Position numbers and translations under genes: made by a program | Shown here: in pieces, positions 52,037-59,675 of the stretch | Layout of the letters: each line of letters starts with the position of its first letter | Numbering within the stretch: the first letter of the stretch is position 1 | NCBI GenBank assembly: GCA_024276935.1 | Contig: JAJRWH010000013.1 | Location: 1-64,000 of the forward strand | Direction: 5' to 3' | DNA from: Deltaproteobacteria bacterium | GTDB lineage: Bacteria > Desulfobacterota > Desulfuromonadia > Desulfuromonadales > Geopsychrobacteraceae | DNA length: 64,000 bases | Notes under the pieces: model-generated | The model's input: only the letters and a program-made list of their open reading frames with translations | What the model was told of the DNA's origin: nothing | Databases searched by the model: none

Positions 52037-54079
52037 ATGAATTCCCTCAAGATCAAAATATTGGGCCTGACAATCGGCATTACAATTATTGTCGTTCTTC
52101 TGGGGACCTGGCATAACCTGAGAACCCAGTCTGTCATGATTGAAAGAATTGCCGCTCATGACAGTCGCCTCCTTTCCAGCACCATCCGCAACAGTATCCG
52201 CACCTCTATGTCGGTGGGCAGAAATGACGACGTTCGCAGCATCCTCAAGGAAATTGCTGAAGAGGCAACCATTTCCAACGTCCGTGTTATCGACCCTAAC
52301 GGCAAAATATTACTTTCTGCTGACGAATCGGAAATCGGAACATTGGCCCCGGCGGTCGACCTCATGTCCTATCGCCGCTCTCCCAACGGCTTTTCGTTTA
52401 TGCCCTCAGAAGGAAACCTGTTTATATCAACTCTGCCAATCTTCAACGGTGAAGATTGTCATCGTTGCCACAGCAAGCAAAACAAGGTGCTGGGAATTCT
52501 CAACGTACACCTTTCTCTCGACAGTATCGAATCGGTCCAAAGAAAGGGTCGCGAAGCCAACCTGATTTCATCGGCAACCATCATCGGGATCATGATCTTT
52601 TCGATCACCTTTTTCATTCTTTACTACGTCGATTCCCCTATCCGGCAAATGGTCGCGGCTATGACCAGACTTGAAAATGGTGAATTTGACAAGGCCGCTA
52701 CGGACATCACAAGTTCGCGCGAGATGTCGACTCTTTCCAATAAATTCAACAGTATGGTCAGACGGTTGCAGTCACTCATCGATTCAACGGTTTCTTACGA
52801 ACGCGAAACCGCAGTCCACAAGGAAAAACTTTCTCATCAATCCAAGATTGAAAGCATGAATGTTACTCTTGAGGACCGTTTGCGTGAAATCGAATATCTG
52901 AACATAACTCTGGAAGAACGCATAGAAGAGGTTGAAGAGGCCAACTTCAAAATTGCCGATCTGGCCGGAGACCTTGAAGACCGTAACACCAATCTGGCCA
53001 ATGCGGTTCACCGTTTATCGGCTCTGTATAAAATGGGCTTGGCGGTCAACTCAACGATGGACCTGGGACAGCTTTTCAACCTGCTCCTGCATAAGGCAAC
53101 CAGCTCACTTAACGCGAGCATTGGCTATATTCTGCTGCTTGACAAAAACAGACGAACTTTACGGATTGGAGATGTCGTCGGCTTGCAAAACCCGGGATTT
53201 GACCGCTCCATGACGATTGATCTGGCCCGTGGTGGTGTTTCAGACTGGGTGATCGAAAATCGTGAGCCGATCCTGATTCGCAACATTGAGGACACCCGAG
53301 AGTTTTCACGGATGAGTCGCCTGGGCTTTGCTCGTGAAACAATCCTTTGTGCCCCCCTGTTCGTTCAGGATGAAATTTTCGGGACCCTGACAATCGCCAA
53401 CCGCCCTGATGGAGCCACCTTCAATGATGAAGATCTGGAAATGCTCTCAACCATCGCTGCCCAGGCGAGCGTAGCCATCAAAAATGCCCGGCTTTACGAA
53501 GAGCAACAGAGCACCTACTTAAGTACCGTACATGCGCTGGTTTCAGCCATTGAAGCAAGCGATCCCTACACCCGAGGTCATTCAGAACGTGTCACACGTT
53601 ATTCTCTCGCCCTGGCCCGTCGCCTGGACTTGCCTGAGTCGGCAACCAAAGACCTGGAGCAGGCGGCGATTCTGCATGATATCGGCAAGATCGGCATCGA
53701 TGATTCTCTTCTGCACAAGGTGGATGTATTGTCTCTAAATGACATAGACCGCCTACACCAACACCCGATAATCGGCATGAGGATTCTGGAGCCAATCCAG
53801 TTCATGGTCCGTATTCGGGAAATTATCGGCCAACATCATGAGCGTTTTGATGGCCAGGGCTATCCTTTAGGACTCTCAGGAGACAAACTTCTCCTCGAAG
53901 CACGAATACTTGCCGTGGCGGACAGCTACGATGCGATGACCTCGGACCGGCCCTACCGCAAGGCTCTGCCGGAAGATGTTGCCCTCAAGGAACTGGAACA
54001 ACATACCGGTACTCAGTTTGATCCACGTATTGCAACCGTTTTTATCGAAATGATTCACAAAGGTGAACTCGGTGGCTGA
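52037..54079 (+). CDS. Sensor HD-GYP protein: extracytoplasmic CxxCH-containing domain, HAMP, GAF, HD-GYP
   Basis: Two N-terminal TMs flank a domain with DCHRCHSKQ; GAF region; HDIGKIGIDD and HHERFDGQGYP of the HD-GYP family. Confidence 0.9.
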   Translation: MNSLKIKILGLTIGITIIVVLLGTWHNLRTQSVMIERIAAHDSRLLSSTIRNSIRTSMSVGRNDDVRSILKEIAEEATISNVRVIDPNGKILLSADESEIGTLAPAVDLMSYRRSPNGFSFMPSEGNLFISTLPIFNGEDCHRCHSKQNKVLGILNVHLSLDSIESVQRKGREANLISSATIIGIMIFSITFFILYYVDSPIRQMVAAMTRLENGEFDKAATDITSSREMSTLSNKFNSMVRRLQSLIDSTVSYERETAVHKEKLSHQSKIESMNVTLEDRLREIEYLNITLEERIEEVEEANFKIADLAGDLEDRNTNLANAVHRLSALYKMGLAVNSTMDLGQLFNLLLHKATSSLNASIGYILLLDKNRRTLRIGDVVGLQNPGFDRSMTIDLARGGVSDWVIENREPILIRNIEDTREFSRMSRLGFARETILCAPLFVQDEIFGTLTIANRPDGATFNDEDLEMLSTIAAQASVAIKNARLYEEQQSTYLSTVHALVSAIEASDPYTRGHSERVTRYSLALARRLDLPESATKDLEQAAILHDIGKIGIDDSLLHKVDVLSLNDIDRLHQHPIIGMRILEPIQFMVRIREIIGQHHERFDGQGYPLGLSGDKLLLEARILAVADSYDAMTSDRPYRKALPEDVALKELEQHTGTQFDPRIATVFIEMIHKGELGG

Positions 54080-56267
54080 TAAAGCTGACATTCCTCACAT
54101 CATTCCCAAATTTGAAACTTTCCAACTAACCAGGCAACTGTTATGGCCCCTGGTCATCCTGTTGCTGGTCCTGGCAGGCACCTCAGTCGTCGGTTCTTCT
54201 CTCTTGCTCTACAACAGCCTGAGTGCCTCCATAGATCATCAGCTCGACCATGCCCAGAAAATGGTCTACCGTGATCTGAAAAATCGCGAAATGCTGCTGG
54301 CCGACTTGCTGGTTCTGCTCAGTTTGAAACCGGCTTCTATTCCGACAACAGAACTGGAAGCTGAAGCACGGGCCTATCAACCCCTTCTGGACCTCCATCT
54401 CTATGATTCACGCAGTAAACTGAGTGAGCCATTACGGGCATTGAGTGAAACCGTAGTTCAAAGCAAAACCGGACTGCGTTACATTACCTATGACAAACGT
54501 ACAGATCTCTACTATCTCACTCTGGCAGCCCCCGCAAAACCACCACGCAATGCGCTTCTGATGCAGTTTCCCATCAATAGAAGGCTCTTAAAACTTCTTG
54601 CCGAACGCTATTTGTGCGACTTTTCCCTCTACTCCGAAGAAGGCCGCCTGATGGCCAGCAGCAGTGACAAGGGAAATCCCGACCTGCAACTTTCTGAAGA
54701 TCAGCTGGCTCGCATCAGCAAAAGCAACCATCTATATACATCAAAAATTGAGGATGTTGACTACCGCAGCCTGTATGTTCCACTCCCTTTGGGCAGTGAC
54801 GGCATTCTTTACCTGGCCACCAGTCATTCTCTAGACAATCTCAATGGTCTTCTGTTAACGCACAGCTGGCGCCTGCTGATGACTGTCATCCTGGCCCTTG
54901 CCCTGGGGGCGTTCATCTACTATCACCGGCTCAAACATGCCCTGACACCCCTTAAGAACCTGCTTGAAACCATCCACCAGGTTTCACGGGGAAACCTGTC
55001 CAGCCGCACCGAGTTGACTGACGGAAACTGTCTCAATGAGTTGGGAAACAGTTTCAACCTTATGCTGGATCAGCTGGAAACCCTTATCGAAAAACGGCTT
55101 GAAAATGAAAAAAATGCGGTTCTGACTCAAGAGACACTCAAGTACAACAATCATCTCAAAAAGAAAAATCTGGAGATCGAAAAAGCCAATATCCTGCTTA
55201 AGGAGCAATACGAAGAGCTTACGGCTCTTTTTCAGGTTTCACGCAGTTTGACGGCTGCCCTCGACCAGAACTTACTGTTCGAAAAAATATTCAGTGTATT
55301 TCGCGAATCTCTTCATTGTGACCGCATCGTCCTGTTGCTTTACCAGGCAGGCGATGAATCTCTTGAAGTCATCAAAACAACAGGCCTCGATGCCACAACG
55401 GTCAAGGGACTTTCTTTTAAACTGGGCGAAGGGATCAGCGGGATGGTTGCAGCGTCCATGCAACCTATTTACAGCCCCGACTTAAGTACCGATGACCGTA
55501 ACCTCAGTTACAAGGGACGCTGGGTTTCCTCTGGCAGCTTACTCTCGATGCCGATGGTCCTGCAGGGCCAACTGATCGGCGTACTGAACATTCATCATCA
55601 GCAACCAGACGCATTCAGCCCCATTGCCCAACAGATGGCTCAGGCAATCGCCGATCAGGCCGCTATCTCCATCGAAAACTCGCGACTTTATGAAAAAACC
55701 CGCGCCCTGTCGGCAACCGATGATTTGACAGGACTGGCCAACCGTCGTCAGTTCCAGGATTTTCTGCAACGCGAATGGACTCAAGCACGACGCTATCAGG
55801 ACAATTTCAGCCTGTTAATGATCGACATTGACAACTTCAAGGCTTATAACGATATCCACGGTCACCTTAAAGGAGATATTGTCCTGAAAAAGGTTGCCGC
55901 ACTGCTGCTGCAAAATACTCGGGGAATTGATCTGGTCGCGCGTTTTGATGGCGAAGAATTCGTTCTTTTACTTCCGAAAGCGAACCGCGAGGGCAGTCTG
56001 GCAGTCGCAAACAAGCTATGTCGGTGTATCGAGAATGAATATTTTGCAGGAATGGAGGCGAGTCAGCCCCAGAAAAAACTGACTATCTCGATCGGAGTTG
56101 CCAGCTACCCGACCGACAGTACCGATATTTATGAGTTAGTAAATCTTGCCGATGAGGCTTTGTACCAGGCCAAACATCAAGGCCGGAATTGCGTCGTCGC
56201 CTGGAAACGAGAGAATTCTTCTCTCTCCAACAGAGAAAACAAGCAACCCTCATTACCACCTACCTGA
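54063..56267 (+). CDS. Membrane HAMP/GAF/GGDEF-family protein (signature DGEEF)
   Basis: Two TMs, GAF, then SLLMIDIDNFKAYNDIHGHLKGD...RGIDLVARFDGEEFVLLLPKA; GTG start overlaps the HD-GYP stop by 17 nt. Confidence 0.88.
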   Translation: MNSVADKADIPHIIPKFETFQLTRQLLWPLVILLLVLAGTSVVGSSLLLYNSLSASIDHQLDHAQKMVYRDLKNREMLLADLLVLLSLKPASIPTTELEAEARAYQPLLDLHLYDSRSKLSEPLRALSETVVQSKTGLRYITYDKRTDLYYLTLAAPAKPPRNALLMQFPINRRLLKLLAERYLCDFSLYSEEGRLMASSSDKGNPDLQLSEDQLARISKSNHLYTSKIEDVDYRSLYVPLPLGSDGILYLATSHSLDNLNGLLLTHSWRLLMTVILALALGAFIYYHRLKHALTPLKNLLETIHQVSRGNLSSRTELTDGNCLNELGNSFNLMLDQLETLIEKRLENEKNAVLTQETLKYNNHLKKKNLEIEKANILLKEQYEELTALFQVSRSLTAALDQNLLFEKIFSVFRESLHCDRIVLLLYQAGDESLEVIKTTGLDATTVKGLSFKLGEGISGMVAASMQPIYSPDLSTDDRNLSYKGRWVSSGSLLSMPMVLQGQLIGVLNIHHQQPDAFSPIAQQMAQAIADQAAISIENSRLYEKTRALSATDDLTGLANRRQFQDFLQREWTQARRYQDNFSLLMIDIDNFKAYNDIHGHLKGDIVLKKVAALLLQNTRGIDLVARFDGEEFVLLLPKANREGSLAVANKLCRCIENEYFAGMEASQPQKKLTISIGVASYPTDSTDIYELVNLADEALYQAKHQGRNCVVAWKRENSSLSNRENKQPSLPPT

Positions 56268-56271
56268 TTTA

Positions 56272-57621
56272 TCAGTGTCCTTCGTACAGAATCTTCCAGC
56301 GGCTGTCATCCTTGACCAGATAAAGTTGCTTTTGCATGTCACCATTATAATTGTTTGACCGATACTGCTGCGTAAAGGTCGCAACCACCATCTTACGGCC
56401 CTCACTACCCTGACGGGGATAGCCGAACAGAGAGATCCCTCGCAGGGCAATACTCTGATGTGTTTTCCAGCGCAAAACCCGGGTTTTATACTCTTTCCAG
56501 CGGGTCAGATCATAACGGCCACTCCAGAAGTCTGGTGCATAGTTTTCAAGATAACTGGCAAGATCAACCTTTTCCCAACTGCTTCGCCAACTCTCAAGCA
56601 TTGATTGCAGCTCAATATTTCTGTCCAGCCACTGCCGACCGCTGATCCATTCTACCCGACCACTGATAACAACCGGTGTCACCCCCGGTTCAATATAACG
56701 TCCAATGCGTAAAAGCTCACTGTTGGTCAGGGCAACACAACCTTCTGTATCGCGGGGCGGGCGACTGTAAAGCGTTTTGTCTGTGCCATGCAGCCAGATA
56801 CCGTAGCCTGTTTTTGCCAGATGCCGATCAAAAGCATTGGGATAGTTAACCGGAAAAGCCCCTGTCCCATATTGTATCGGCAATTTATCGTCACTGATGT
56901 GACCAGTCACAAAATACACCCCACTTGGCGTCTTCAGATCTCCCTTACGGTACTTATTCCCCTCTTTTTGCCCCAAAACCACGTAATAATCATCAACCAG
57001 CTGCGGAGGCAAACCCGTTCCCGCATTTCGAAAAACGTATAGTCGGTTGGCAGCTTTGTCCACCAGCAGGGCGTATTTTATTGTAGGATTCAGAGCAATA
57101 AATGCCGCAGGAATCTTCTGTTCTCGCAGCAGGCTGAGATAGCCACGCAAACGAGCACGGGCTTCGCGACGCAGGTTTTCAATTTCCTGCCCGTCTTCAC
57201 CCGTATCAAGAGTTGCCAGAAGTTCCGTCCCTCCCAATTGATCAAGGCGTTCAAAACGGGCGACCAGCAAATCGCCATAAACCAGATGTGCCAACTGAAA
57301 TTTCGGGGCTCTTTTTGTCAAATCGCGCAAAATTGTGATCGCTGAATCCAGGCGATCATTTTGAAACAACAACAAGGCCTTGAGCAGATTGGCCTCATGA
57401 TCATCCGGGTTCTGGGTCAAACGTTGTTCCAGGCGGCGCAAAAGGGCCTGCTGACGAGGAAGCAGAGTTCCCAGAAAATCAGCTTCGAGAAGTGTCCTTC
57501 CCTGGCCGGCCGGATCCAGAGCAGCCGTTGGGGGCTGATTCCGCCAGAGAGCCCACACACTGACCACCGTTGCAATCAGGAGCAGAGCAATAACACAAAG
57601 GACAAACCCGCGTCTTATCAT
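56272..57621 (-). CDS. L,D-transpeptidase (YkuD family) with TPR-like N-terminal region and C-terminal NTF2-like domain
   Basis: YALLVDKAANRLYVFRN; GIWLHGTDKTLYSRPPRDTEGCVALTNSEL (HGT...GCV catalytic motif); C-terminal domain resembles that of the upstream gene. Confidence 0.9.
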   Translation of the reverse strand: MIRRGFVLCVIALLLIATVVSVWALWRNQPPTAALDPAGQGRTLLEADFLGTLLPRQQALLRRLEQRLTQNPDDHEANLLKALLLFQNDRLDSAITILRDLTKRAPKFQLAHLVYGDLLVARFERLDQLGGTELLATLDTGEDGQEIENLRREARARLRGYLSLLREQKIPAAFIALNPTIKYALLVDKAANRLYVFRNAGTGLPPQLVDDYYVVLGQKEGNKYRKGDLKTPSGVYFVTGHISDDKLPIQYGTGAFPVNYPNAFDRHLAKTGYGIWLHGTDKTLYSRPPRDTEGCVALTNSELLRIGRYIEPGVTPVVISGRVEWISGRQWLDRNIELQSMLESWRSSWEKVDLASYLENYAPDFWSGRYDLTRWKEYKTRVLRWKTHQSIALRGISLFGYPRQGSEGRKMVVATFTQQYRSNNYNGDMQKQLYLVKDDSRWKILYEGH

Positions 57622-59675
57622 CAGCGCACCCGTCCCAGAGATTTTTCTTCGACAATTAACCAGGAATCCCCATCACGCCGCAGAACAAAAGACTTTCGGG
57701 TTTTATCTCGATACCGGTCACTTCGATAATGCTGAACAACCTGAACCTTTGCCGTGTCACCAGTTCCACTGATTGCTTCAATCGGTTCAAGACTGACCTC
57801 GATAAAGGTCGGAGCTGACAGACGCTGACGTCGCTGATTCTCCCAGACCTGACGTGAAAGATTATTCGGCGGTGTATATTCAGGTGCATATCGGGCCAGA
57901 TACGCATCAATATCCTGGGCAGACCAGGCAGCGGCCCACTGTTGCAGAAACTGTTGTGGCGCAAGGGAAACCTTGGCAGCAGCTCTGGGCTCTGATTCGG
58001 GTTCTCCCTGAGGAGCAGCTTCAACCGCAGCGGAAACCGGCTGTTTTGGGTCGGCACTGGCAGATTCTGCGCGAATCGGGGTCTTCGTTTTGTCCGCAGT
58101 CTCAACCGGCACCTTGACAGCAGTCTCCCCGGCTTCCGGCGCTGCAGATACCTTAACAGGCGTTTTTTGAGCTGTCCTGGCCCTGGTCACCTCTTCGGAT
58201 ACTGTTTTGTCTGCTTCAGGTTTCAACTGCTGGCCAACTGTCCCCAGAACTTGTAATTTGACAGGTTTTTTTTCTCCCTCAAGCAACAGGGCCTTACCAT
58301 AACTGTCACGAGCCATCGCCGCATAGACGGTTCCGATATTACGATAGATCGCAAGATAGTCAGGAGCTGTTTCAAGAGCATTTTTAAGCAATGCCTGCGC
58401 CTGTTCAAGATCCCCTTCTGCCGCATAGAGGGAGGCCAGATTATTATAGGGCCGCGGCGATCCAGGGTTACGTGCGATCAATGCCAGATAGGCTTTTTTC
58501 GCTTTGGCATATTCTCCGGCCAGTAGCAAGCGGTCCGCCTTGTCAAGACCTGCAACGCTCGCAACCCTGATTTCTGGCTGCGCTGCTGCCATCTCCGGTC
58601 TGGGAACCACAAAATACAAAGCCACCCCAATGACCGCACCAACTACCAGACCTAAAAGTAACATCAGATAGCTGAAAGAAGAACTGGACCTGCCAACGAC
58701 CTCAGAAGGAGAATCAAGCGAATCTTCCGACAAGGACGGCTCATCCCGGCGTTGCTGCTCACGTTCGGCAAGCGTTTTTTCAATGCGTACCGTCATCTCA
58801 TTGACATTGTCCTCAGCAGACTGGTCCGCCATCGAAACCTCTCCCTGTTGCTGAACTGAAAGTTTTTGTGGATTAAATTCTGCGGCATCCGCCTCAACAA
58901 CCAATGAATCAATCATCCCAAGCAGTGCACCTGCCGAAGGACGTTGCTGAGAATCTGTCTGCAACATCCGATCGAGAAGGGGCTGGAGAAACTGGTACTC
59001 GGACGGCAGGGCCGGAAGAGGCTCATCAAGCCGCAGCATCGCAATCCGAAAATCGTTATCTGCCTGAAAAGGCAGGATGCCGCACAGCATTTGATAGAGC
59101 ACAATGCCCAAACTGTAGATGTCTGAACTCGCACCCGGTTGTGCCCCCCTGACCTGCTCTGGGCTTACATAATAAGGATCAATGCCAAGGGTATAGTCCA
59201 GCTTGAGAAAACAGGCCATCCCGACATCGGTCAGAATCAGCTGTTCGTCGGGCCCAACAAGGATATTACCTGGTTTGAGGTTCCCGTGAACCACATCCGC
59301 TGCATGAAGATGCTCCAGAATCCCGGCAAGGTCCCTGGTGAAGCGCAATGCCTGCCCTGGTCGCAAACGCACCCCAAGGATCTGTTTGAAATTTCCTCCC
59401 GGGCTGAATTCAGAAACATAAAAAGCCCGCCCATCAGCCTGACCAACTTCAAGCAACCGGGCAATGCCAGGGTGCTTGATACGACAAACAGGTTCTGCTG
59501 CGGTAATGAAATTCTTACGTGATACCTCATCAGGCAAAAGTTCTTCAGTGAGAACAGTCAGTCGGACAAGGCTTCCGCCAGCCTCTTTTCTGGCCTGATA
59601 GTTTTCGATCGCCAGTCGATTGCCAAGGGGAGAATCGATCAAATAACCGGCAAATGTCTGACCCGCTTCGAACAC
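57621..59675 (-). CDS. Ser/Thr protein kinase-fold membrane protein, predicted pseudokinase, with extracytoplasmic TPR and C-terminal NTF2-like domain
   Basis: Kinase-fold landmarks HGNLKPGNILV, TDVGMA, YVSPEQ, SDIYSLGIVLYQMLCGILPF; TM YLMLLLGLVVGAVIGVALYFVV; TPR then a NTF2-like tail; TGATG overlap with the downstream gene. Confidence 0.85.
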   Translation of the reverse strand: MFEAGQTFAGYLIDSPLGNRLAIENYQARKEAGGSLVRLTVLTEELLPDEVSRKNFITAAEPVCRIKHPGIARLLEVGQADGRAFYVSEFSPGGNFKQILGVRLRPGQALRFTRDLAGILEHLHAADVVHGNLKPGNILVGPDEQLILTDVGMACFLKLDYTLGIDPYYVSPEQVRGAQPGASSDIYSLGIVLYQMLCGILPFQADNDFRIAMLRLDEPLPALPSEYQFLQPLLDRMLQTDSQQRPSAGALLGMIDSLVVEADAAEFNPQKLSVQQQGEVSMADQSAEDNVNEMTVRIEKTLAEREQQRRDEPSLSEDSLDSPSEVVGRSSSSFSYLMLLLGLVVGAVIGVALYFVVPRPEMAAAQPEIRVASVAGLDKADRLLLAGEYAKAKKAYLALIARNPGSPRPYNNLASLYAAEGDLEQAQALLKNALETAPDYLAIYRNIGTVYAAMARDSYGKALLLEGEKKPVKLQVLGTVGQQLKPEADKTVSEEVTRARTAQKTPVKVSAAPEAGETAVKVPVETADKTKTPIRAESASADPKQPVSAAVEAAPQGEPESEPRAAAKVSLAPQQFLQQWAAAWSAQDIDAYLARYAPEYTPPNNLSRQVWENQRRQRLSAPTFIEVSLEPIEAISGTGDTAKVQVVQHYRSDRYRDKTRKSFVLRRDGDSWLIVEEKSLGRVR

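Follow-up and report, generated by a model that had tools for sequence, protein, structure and literature searches.

A YkuD-family candidate LD-carboxypeptidase encoded with a TPR-Cds6_C partner protein that carries an optional pseudokinase in Desulfuromonadales

The gene pair and its conservation

The window analysed here is a stretch of 64,000 nucleotides from a Deltaproteobacteria bacterium (Desulfuromonadales, family Geopsychrobacteraceae), comprising positions 1 to 64,000 of contig JAJRWH010000013.1 in assembly GCA_024276935.1. Between 56272 and 59675 the reverse strand carries two overlapping genes. The upstream gene encodes a membrane protein with an N-terminal kinase fold, termed here the partner, and the downstream gene (ykuD) encodes a putative peptidoglycan-trimming enzyme of the YkuD family. 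Both proteins terminate in an NTF2-like domain of the Cds6_C type. The features of the pair are as follows, confidence in the models being given as the predicted local distance difference test (pLDDT).

57621..59675, reverse strand: partner gene (pseudokinase, transmembrane helix, TPR, NTF2/Cds6_C), 684 amino acids, GTG start; from the open reading frame and Pfam
58890..59675, reverse strand: pseudokinase domain, residues 1-262; VRLT for VAIK, HGN for HRD, DVG for DFG
58746..58817, reverse strand: cytoplasmic juxtamembrane helix, residues 287-310 (EMTVRIEKTLAEREQQR); helix 287-310 in the AlphaFold2 model
58608..58673, reverse strand: single transmembrane helix, residues 335-356; hydropathy peak at 339, helix in the model
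58290..58568, reverse strand: periplasmic TPR segment, residues 370-462; TPR Pfam matches, helix pairs in the model
57972..58238, reverse strand: disordered periplasmic linker, residues 480-568; pLDDT ~30-44
57630..57959, reverse strand: partner NTF2/Cds6_C domain, residues 573-682; PF24125 E=5.3e-13, pLDDT mostly >90, pocket Y592, Y600, R615, K661, E677
57619..57623, reverse strand: TGATG stop/start overlap, read in the sequence; the forward strand reads catca
56272..57621, reverse strand: YkuD protein gene (TPR, YkuD, NTF2/Cds6_C), 449 amino acids, ATG start; from the open reading frame, Pfam and matches to solved relatives, a candidate LD-carboxypeptidase of the Csd6/Pgp2/Bd1075 type
57541..57618, reverse strand: N-terminal signal anchor or transmembrane helix of the enzyme, residues 2-27; hydrophobic segment, helix 2-27 in the model
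57262..57459, reverse strand: TPR-like helical region of the enzyme, residues 55-120; TPR Pfam matches, model helices
56665..57075, reverse strand: YkuD catalytic domain, residues 183-319; PF03734 E=1.7e-17, H278, C295, D-Ala pocket Y251 and W276, A297 at Cys+2
56281..56610, reverse strand: enzyme NTF2/Cds6_C domain, residues 338-447; PF24125 E=5.2e-29, pocket Y357, F365, K379, K431, E447

The two open reading frames and their overlap at 57621 had been described in an earlier, sequence-only reading of this DNA, and both are confirmed. The stop codon of the partner and the start codon of the enzyme have one base in common (TGATG, coding strand 57623-57619), and the GTG start of the partner is supported by its alignment to StkP from residue 1. 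Besides the matches listed above, Pfam finds Pkinase (E=2.6e-29) and TPR models (up to 2e-7) in the partner and TPR_16 (E=1.6e-6) in the enzyme, in agreement with the TPR-like segment that had been proposed for each protein. The C-termini, noted earlier as similar and NTF2-like, are both matched by PF24125 (Cds6_C), the Pfam 'Cds6 C-terminal NTF2-like domain', with solved relatives Bd1075, Pgp2 and Helicobacter pylori Csd6. The enzyme scores 101.2 bits against a cut-off of 27, and the models of the two tails agree in topology, with helices followed by a four-stranded sheet.

The pair is conserved in related genomes. A Cds6_C domain is present in 46 of the 277 genomes of the window's class and in most genomes of its family; whenever enzyme and partner share a contig, their domains are separated by ~1.35 kb. 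The gene order truA-rplM-rpsI-argC-partner-ykuD recurs in most genera of the family, with a stop/start overlap of 1 nt within the genus and 4 nt in most other family members. A wider sample was formed by the 80 best enzyme matches of the 569 relatives found, and is thus biased to enzymes that resemble the 56272-57621 product. A Cds6_C gene lies directly upstream of ykuD at 77 of these 80 loci, the remaining three starting at or near a contig edge; the sample does not establish a partner for all Cds6-type YkuD proteins. The loci are mostly from Beta- and Gammaproteobacteria, for which the prevalence of the pair is based on these 80, and the pair is found in other phyla too. Since the overlap is retained through the family and the pair extends to other phyla, the pairing is real and old and does not result from chance. 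The pair is not described in the literature found, and no papers were found that bring together a pseudokinase, NTF2 and peptidoglycan.

The partners examined in Beta- and Gammaproteobacteria comprise TPRs and Cds6_C, usually following a signal-like N-terminus, with no kinase. Three longer partner open reading frames (L103, L133 and L143, 535-835 amino acids) were considered for additional N-terminal domains, and gave matches to TPR and Cds6_C only. The first 180-300 residues of L103 and L133 precede a hydrophobic, signal-like segment, and these two reading frames probably have over-extended starts.

The YkuD enzyme and the two Cds6_C tails

The closest solved relatives of the enzyme by sequence are Bd1075 of Bdellovibrio (7o21, E=1.9e-37), Csd6 of H. 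pylori (3.9e-28) and Pgp2 of Campylobacter jejuni (1.4e-19). The AlphaFold model superimposes on these with template modelling scores (TM, by target length) of 0.87, 0.69 and 0.72 respectively. The enzyme resembles all three in the order of YkuD and Cds6_C, in the catalytic His and Cys, in the Tyr and Trp of the D-Ala pocket and in all five functional residues of the NTF2 pocket. It differs in having an N-terminal TPR segment and anchor, rather than a dimerisation domain or short loop. Moreover, while bd1075 is described as monocistronic (PMC8938487), the gene in the window is encoded with a partner that bears an NTF2 domain of its own.

The active site had been read as intact, and this holds: H278, G279 and C295 are present and invariant in 24 orthologs. 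Y251 and W276 are also invariant in the 24, and align with Tyr133 and Trp158 of Csd6, the D-Ala pocket that tells carboxypeptidases from DpaA (DpaA structure paper, PMC10653827). The residue at Cys+2 is Ala within the genus (GCVA) and Val in the other orthologs (GCVV), where most transpeptidases have Arg (PMC8938487). From the solved relatives, the D-Ala-pocket Tyr and Trp and the lack of Arg at Cys+2, the reaction is likely to be the trimming of tetra- to tripeptides, as by an LD-carboxypeptidase. The same features count against the 3-3 crosslinking or lipoprotein tethering suggested previously. The Pfam domain is named L,D-transpeptidase, and sequence cannot give activity with certainty; given that all three of the closest solved relatives are LD-carboxypeptidases, however, a transpeptidase that makes 3-3 crosslinks or attaches a protein to peptidoglycan is quite unlikely. 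Identity as a DpaA/YafK amidase is disfavoured, the NCBIfam model NF040599 scoring 24.2 bits against a cut-off of 365. The enzyme is like DpaA/YafK (LdtF) in belonging to the YkuD hydrolase branch, in its Ala at Cys+2 and in this weak match. Unlike the enzyme, DpaA lacks the Trp of the D-Ala pocket (Met133, PMC10653827), and the alignment spans the catalytic part only.

The function of the Cds6_C tail has been studied in two of the relatives. The NTF2 pocket of Pgp2 binds peptidoglycan; helical cell shape is not restored by proteins substituted at Y233, F242, K257, K307 or E324, and K307A loses sacculus binding (PMC8038945). In Bd1075 the NTF2 domain, including pocket residue Y274, directs the enzyme to the convex face of the cell (PMC8938487). 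Profile alignments to the PDB chains, with checks of numbering, place the five Pgp2 residues in order at Y357, F365, K379, K431 and E447 of the enzyme and at Y592, Y600, R615, K661 and E677 of the partner, with Y274 of Bd1075 corresponding to Y420 and Y650. In an alignment of 221 distinct Cds6_C domains from the gathered loci the five are nearly always conserved; when the 102 columns are ranked by conservation, with similar residues pooled, all five fall in the top 12 (naive p ~1e-5, neither positions nor sequences being independent). The sequence-only reading had proposed that the duplicated extracytoplasmic domain could bring the two proteins to one partner or peptidoglycan site, and a shared peptidoglycan feature is plausible from the conservation of the pocket in both tails and the precedents of Pgp2 and Bd1075 (PMC8038945, PMC8938487). 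As its pocket residues are conserved, the tail of the partner is expected to recognise a ligand of the same type as the enzyme's tail does.

Dimerisation is frequent among NTF2-fold domains. The two tails are always adjacently encoded in this set, and might heterodimerise, so that the two proteins find each other, without binding peptidoglycan in these bacteria. Self-interaction of the NTF2 domain has been raised as a possibility for Bd1075 (PMC8938487). Such a role is nonetheless unlikely, given that the five peptidoglycan-pocket residues are all among the most conserved positions, and that unrelated proteins of the envelope (TolC, FadL and NHL types, described below) carry this tail too.

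The pseudokinase domain

The AlphaFold2 model of the N-terminal domain of the partner (pLDDT mostly 80-98) matches the fold of PknA with a TM score of 0.82. The domain fails as an active Hanks-type Ser/Thr kinase, with Thr for the VAIK Lys and Asn for the HRD Asp, so that its earlier designation as a pseudokinase is correct; the Asp of DFG is kept. Every kinase copy of the window's family is missing the Lys of VAIK as well as the Asp of HRD. Order-level relatives keep the Lys or the HRD Asp, and all three motifs are intact in none of the aligned copies. The Asp of DFG survives in the window protein and in the ortholog closest to it, and DFG is eroded in several other copies. The presence of this Asp in the two proteins, on an intact fold, could indicate an unusual catalysis such as AMPylation, by which a cytoplasmic target is modified. 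With two catalytic residues missing throughout the family and DFG eroded in several members, this is highly improbable.

The arrangement of the partner is like that of the PASTA kinases PknB and StkP, with a cytoplasmic kinase fold, a transmembrane helix and an extracytoplasmic wall-binding domain, and the similarity of its kinase domain to StkP has E=4e-28. It differs from these proteins in lacking the catalytic Lys and Asp, and in having TPR-NTF2 in place of PASTA repeats. In a tree of kinase domains the copies from the window and from G067 cluster with those of the rest of the family, and separately from StkP and the order-level copies (99/97 support), suggesting a single origin. Where the domain is kept it is under purifying selection, the ratio of nonsynonymous to synonymous substitution (dN/dS) of ~0.10-0.19 being comparable to that of Cds6_C, with dS near saturation in most pairs compared. 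Against the nearest ortholog the TPR segment of the partner has a dN/dS of 0.03, while the linker is fast-evolving (26% identity).

Kinase-fold partners are confined to Desulfuromonadales loci in this set, and even there the domain is not universal. It is cleanly absent from seven same-family relatives, namely five genomes that share the window's genus and two from a sister genus. In the five same-genus loci argC lies directly upstream of the partner, and the juxtamembrane helix, now at the N-terminus, is still present together with the transmembrane helix. A tblastn search of the kinase-less loci gave no convincing hidden kinase remnants. Well-supported branches of the enzyme tree force at least three gains or losses of the kinase, for example one gain and two losses; loss followed by re-acquisition within the window's genus is possible.

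The pseudokinase is thus functional where kept, yet not essential to the module. It had been proposed as a gate on the enzyme, and was considered as the conserved partner. Such a core regulator would sense a cytoplasmic signal and gate the periplasmic YkuD enzyme across the membrane. Its tight coupling to the enzyme gene, the purifying selection and the mycobacterial precedent of MviN and FhaA (PMC12599244) are consistent with this. The domain is, however, absent from the Beta- and Gammaproteobacterial partners examined and from the seven family relatives, five of them in the same genus and with the same gene order. Because the pair exists there without a kinase, the pseudokinase cannot be the core of the module, and we consider the gating role to have a low probability; it could add regulation where present.

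In mycobacteria the pseudokinase of MviN recruits FhaA to inhibit peptidoglycan synthesis (PMC12599244), and by analogy the pseudokinase of the partner probably docks a cytoplasmic protein. As in MviN (MurJ)-FhaA of Mycobacterium tuberculosis, a membrane protein of wall metabolism bears a cytoplasmic non-catalytic kinase fold that is unneeded for its core function (PMC12599244). Unlike MviN, the partner has no MurJ flippase domain (Pfam), its kinase fold is joined to TPR-NTF2, and no FHA partner was identified here.

A second, unlinked family of proteins with a kinase fold and Cds6_C, still more degenerate, is present in the same bacterial family (L055 4686-6662 and L056 4712-6649, with further members L057 5857-7656, L058 5448-7358 and L060 3478-5253).

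A proposed mechanism and its wider context

We favour, with a probability of about 0.55, a module made up of an LD-carboxypeptidase and a dedicated non-catalytic peptidoglycan-binding partner, in which the pseudokinase is an optional cytoplasmic docking platform. The YkuD protein would be periplasmic and membrane-anchored, and would shorten tetrapeptide stems by their terminal D-Ala; with peptidoglycan gripped in its NTF2 pocket, it would cut at certain sites only. The partner, co-translated with the enzyme, would offer TPRs and a second NTF2 pocket of the same type on a long flexible linker; a disordered stretch of 90 residues would be well suited to a tail extending to the wall from a platform of TPRs anchored in the membrane. 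It would bind the same or neighbouring peptidoglycan, with its TPRs probably contacting either the enzyme or a complex in the envelope, and this binding would limit trimming in place or timing. Co-translation and the TPRs in both proteins suggest direct contact between them. In Beta- and Gammaproteobacteria the partner is TPR-NTF2 only. In Desulfuromonadales it would have gained a cytoplasmic kinase fold before the transmembrane helix which, with the usual phosphotransfer impossible, would most likely serve for docking. Only in the kinase-bearing species would wall trimming thus be connected to the cytoplasm, through the docked protein. The kinase extension is optional, since several relatives do without it. 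The conserved half of the module is the TPR-NTF2 partner and not the pseudokinase, and it is probably the tail of the partner rather than its kinase that matters.

Several observations weigh against this reading. In the main set the position of Pgp2 K257 is Lys in 101 of 101 YkuD-type domains and Arg in 120 of 120 partner-type domains, and the ligands of the two pockets may therefore not be identical; the division is not universal, with Lys also found in TolC and BamD-type proteins in other families of the phylum. Conservation of the pocket shows a common type of ligand, and not that this ligand is peptidoglycan in these bacteria. The model of the enzyme is only moderately confident near the active site (pLDDT 40s-60s, ~220-228 and 281-300). 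The TPR half of the enzyme differs from the dimerisation domain of Csd6 and Pgp2, so its regulation may differ as well. The near-saturation of dS counts in the same direction, and enzyme activity, binding and partner interaction are inferred for the whole subfamily.

On the forward strand an HD-GYP/GAF gene (52037-54079) and a GGDEF/GAF gene (54063-56267) overlap and converge on ykuD. In other genomes of the genus, and in one further genus, this gene pair likewise adjoins ykuD, hinting at a link between cyclic di-GMP and this locus.

Cds6_C is found at the C-terminus of TolC-type channels (L059 4881-6638, L164 3500-5425) and of a FadL-type outer-membrane protein (L063 3089-5044), where it possibly ties the outer membrane to peptidoglycan. 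A single protein in L155 (3717-6338) joins BamD/YfiO-like TPRs, LptA/LptD_N and Cds6_C in an unusual fusion of outer-membrane assembly domains; L153 and L154 have Cds6_C genes of similar size. The domain is also found with NHL propellers (L061, L064) and with Sel1 (L062). An AAA domain is fused to a YkuD/Cds6_C C-terminus in L158 (4601-6493) and L160 (3688-5577), placing another cytoplasmic nucleotide-binding fold on this type of enzyme, and in L158 a second YkuD-Cds6_C gene adjoins the first. Secreted proteins with Lcl_C and Cds6_C are encoded in L054 (3728-4504; G000:C96), L047 (5787-6572) and similar loci. In one genus and at some outgroup loci the Lcl_C gene immediately follows ykuD; the window's genome carries it on a separate contig. 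The presence of one tail on TolC, FadL, BamD-LptA, NHL, Sel1, Lcl_C and AAA-YkuD proteins supports the view that Cds6_C may be a movable wall-binding tail. More tentatively, and with less than even probability, it may be a general peptidoglycan-reading tail on diverse envelope machines, with a role like that of OmpA_C or SPOR, the two tails of the module (on the enzyme and on its transmembrane partner) coupling local trimming of stem peptides to a cytoplasmic pseudokinase platform.

The pseudokinase offers a caution, in that the most striking domain of a conserved neighbour need not be the functional core. That the tail has also spread to outer-membrane proteins points to a tag for wall binding, one that none of the papers found describes in those terms. 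Csd6, Pgp2 and Bd1075 set cell curvature, and a second conserved protein that shares their wall-binding pocket offers a direct genetic handle on what limits their action to one part of the wall. Such a protein occurs in many culturable Beta- and Gammaproteobacteria, among them relatives of Azoarcus.

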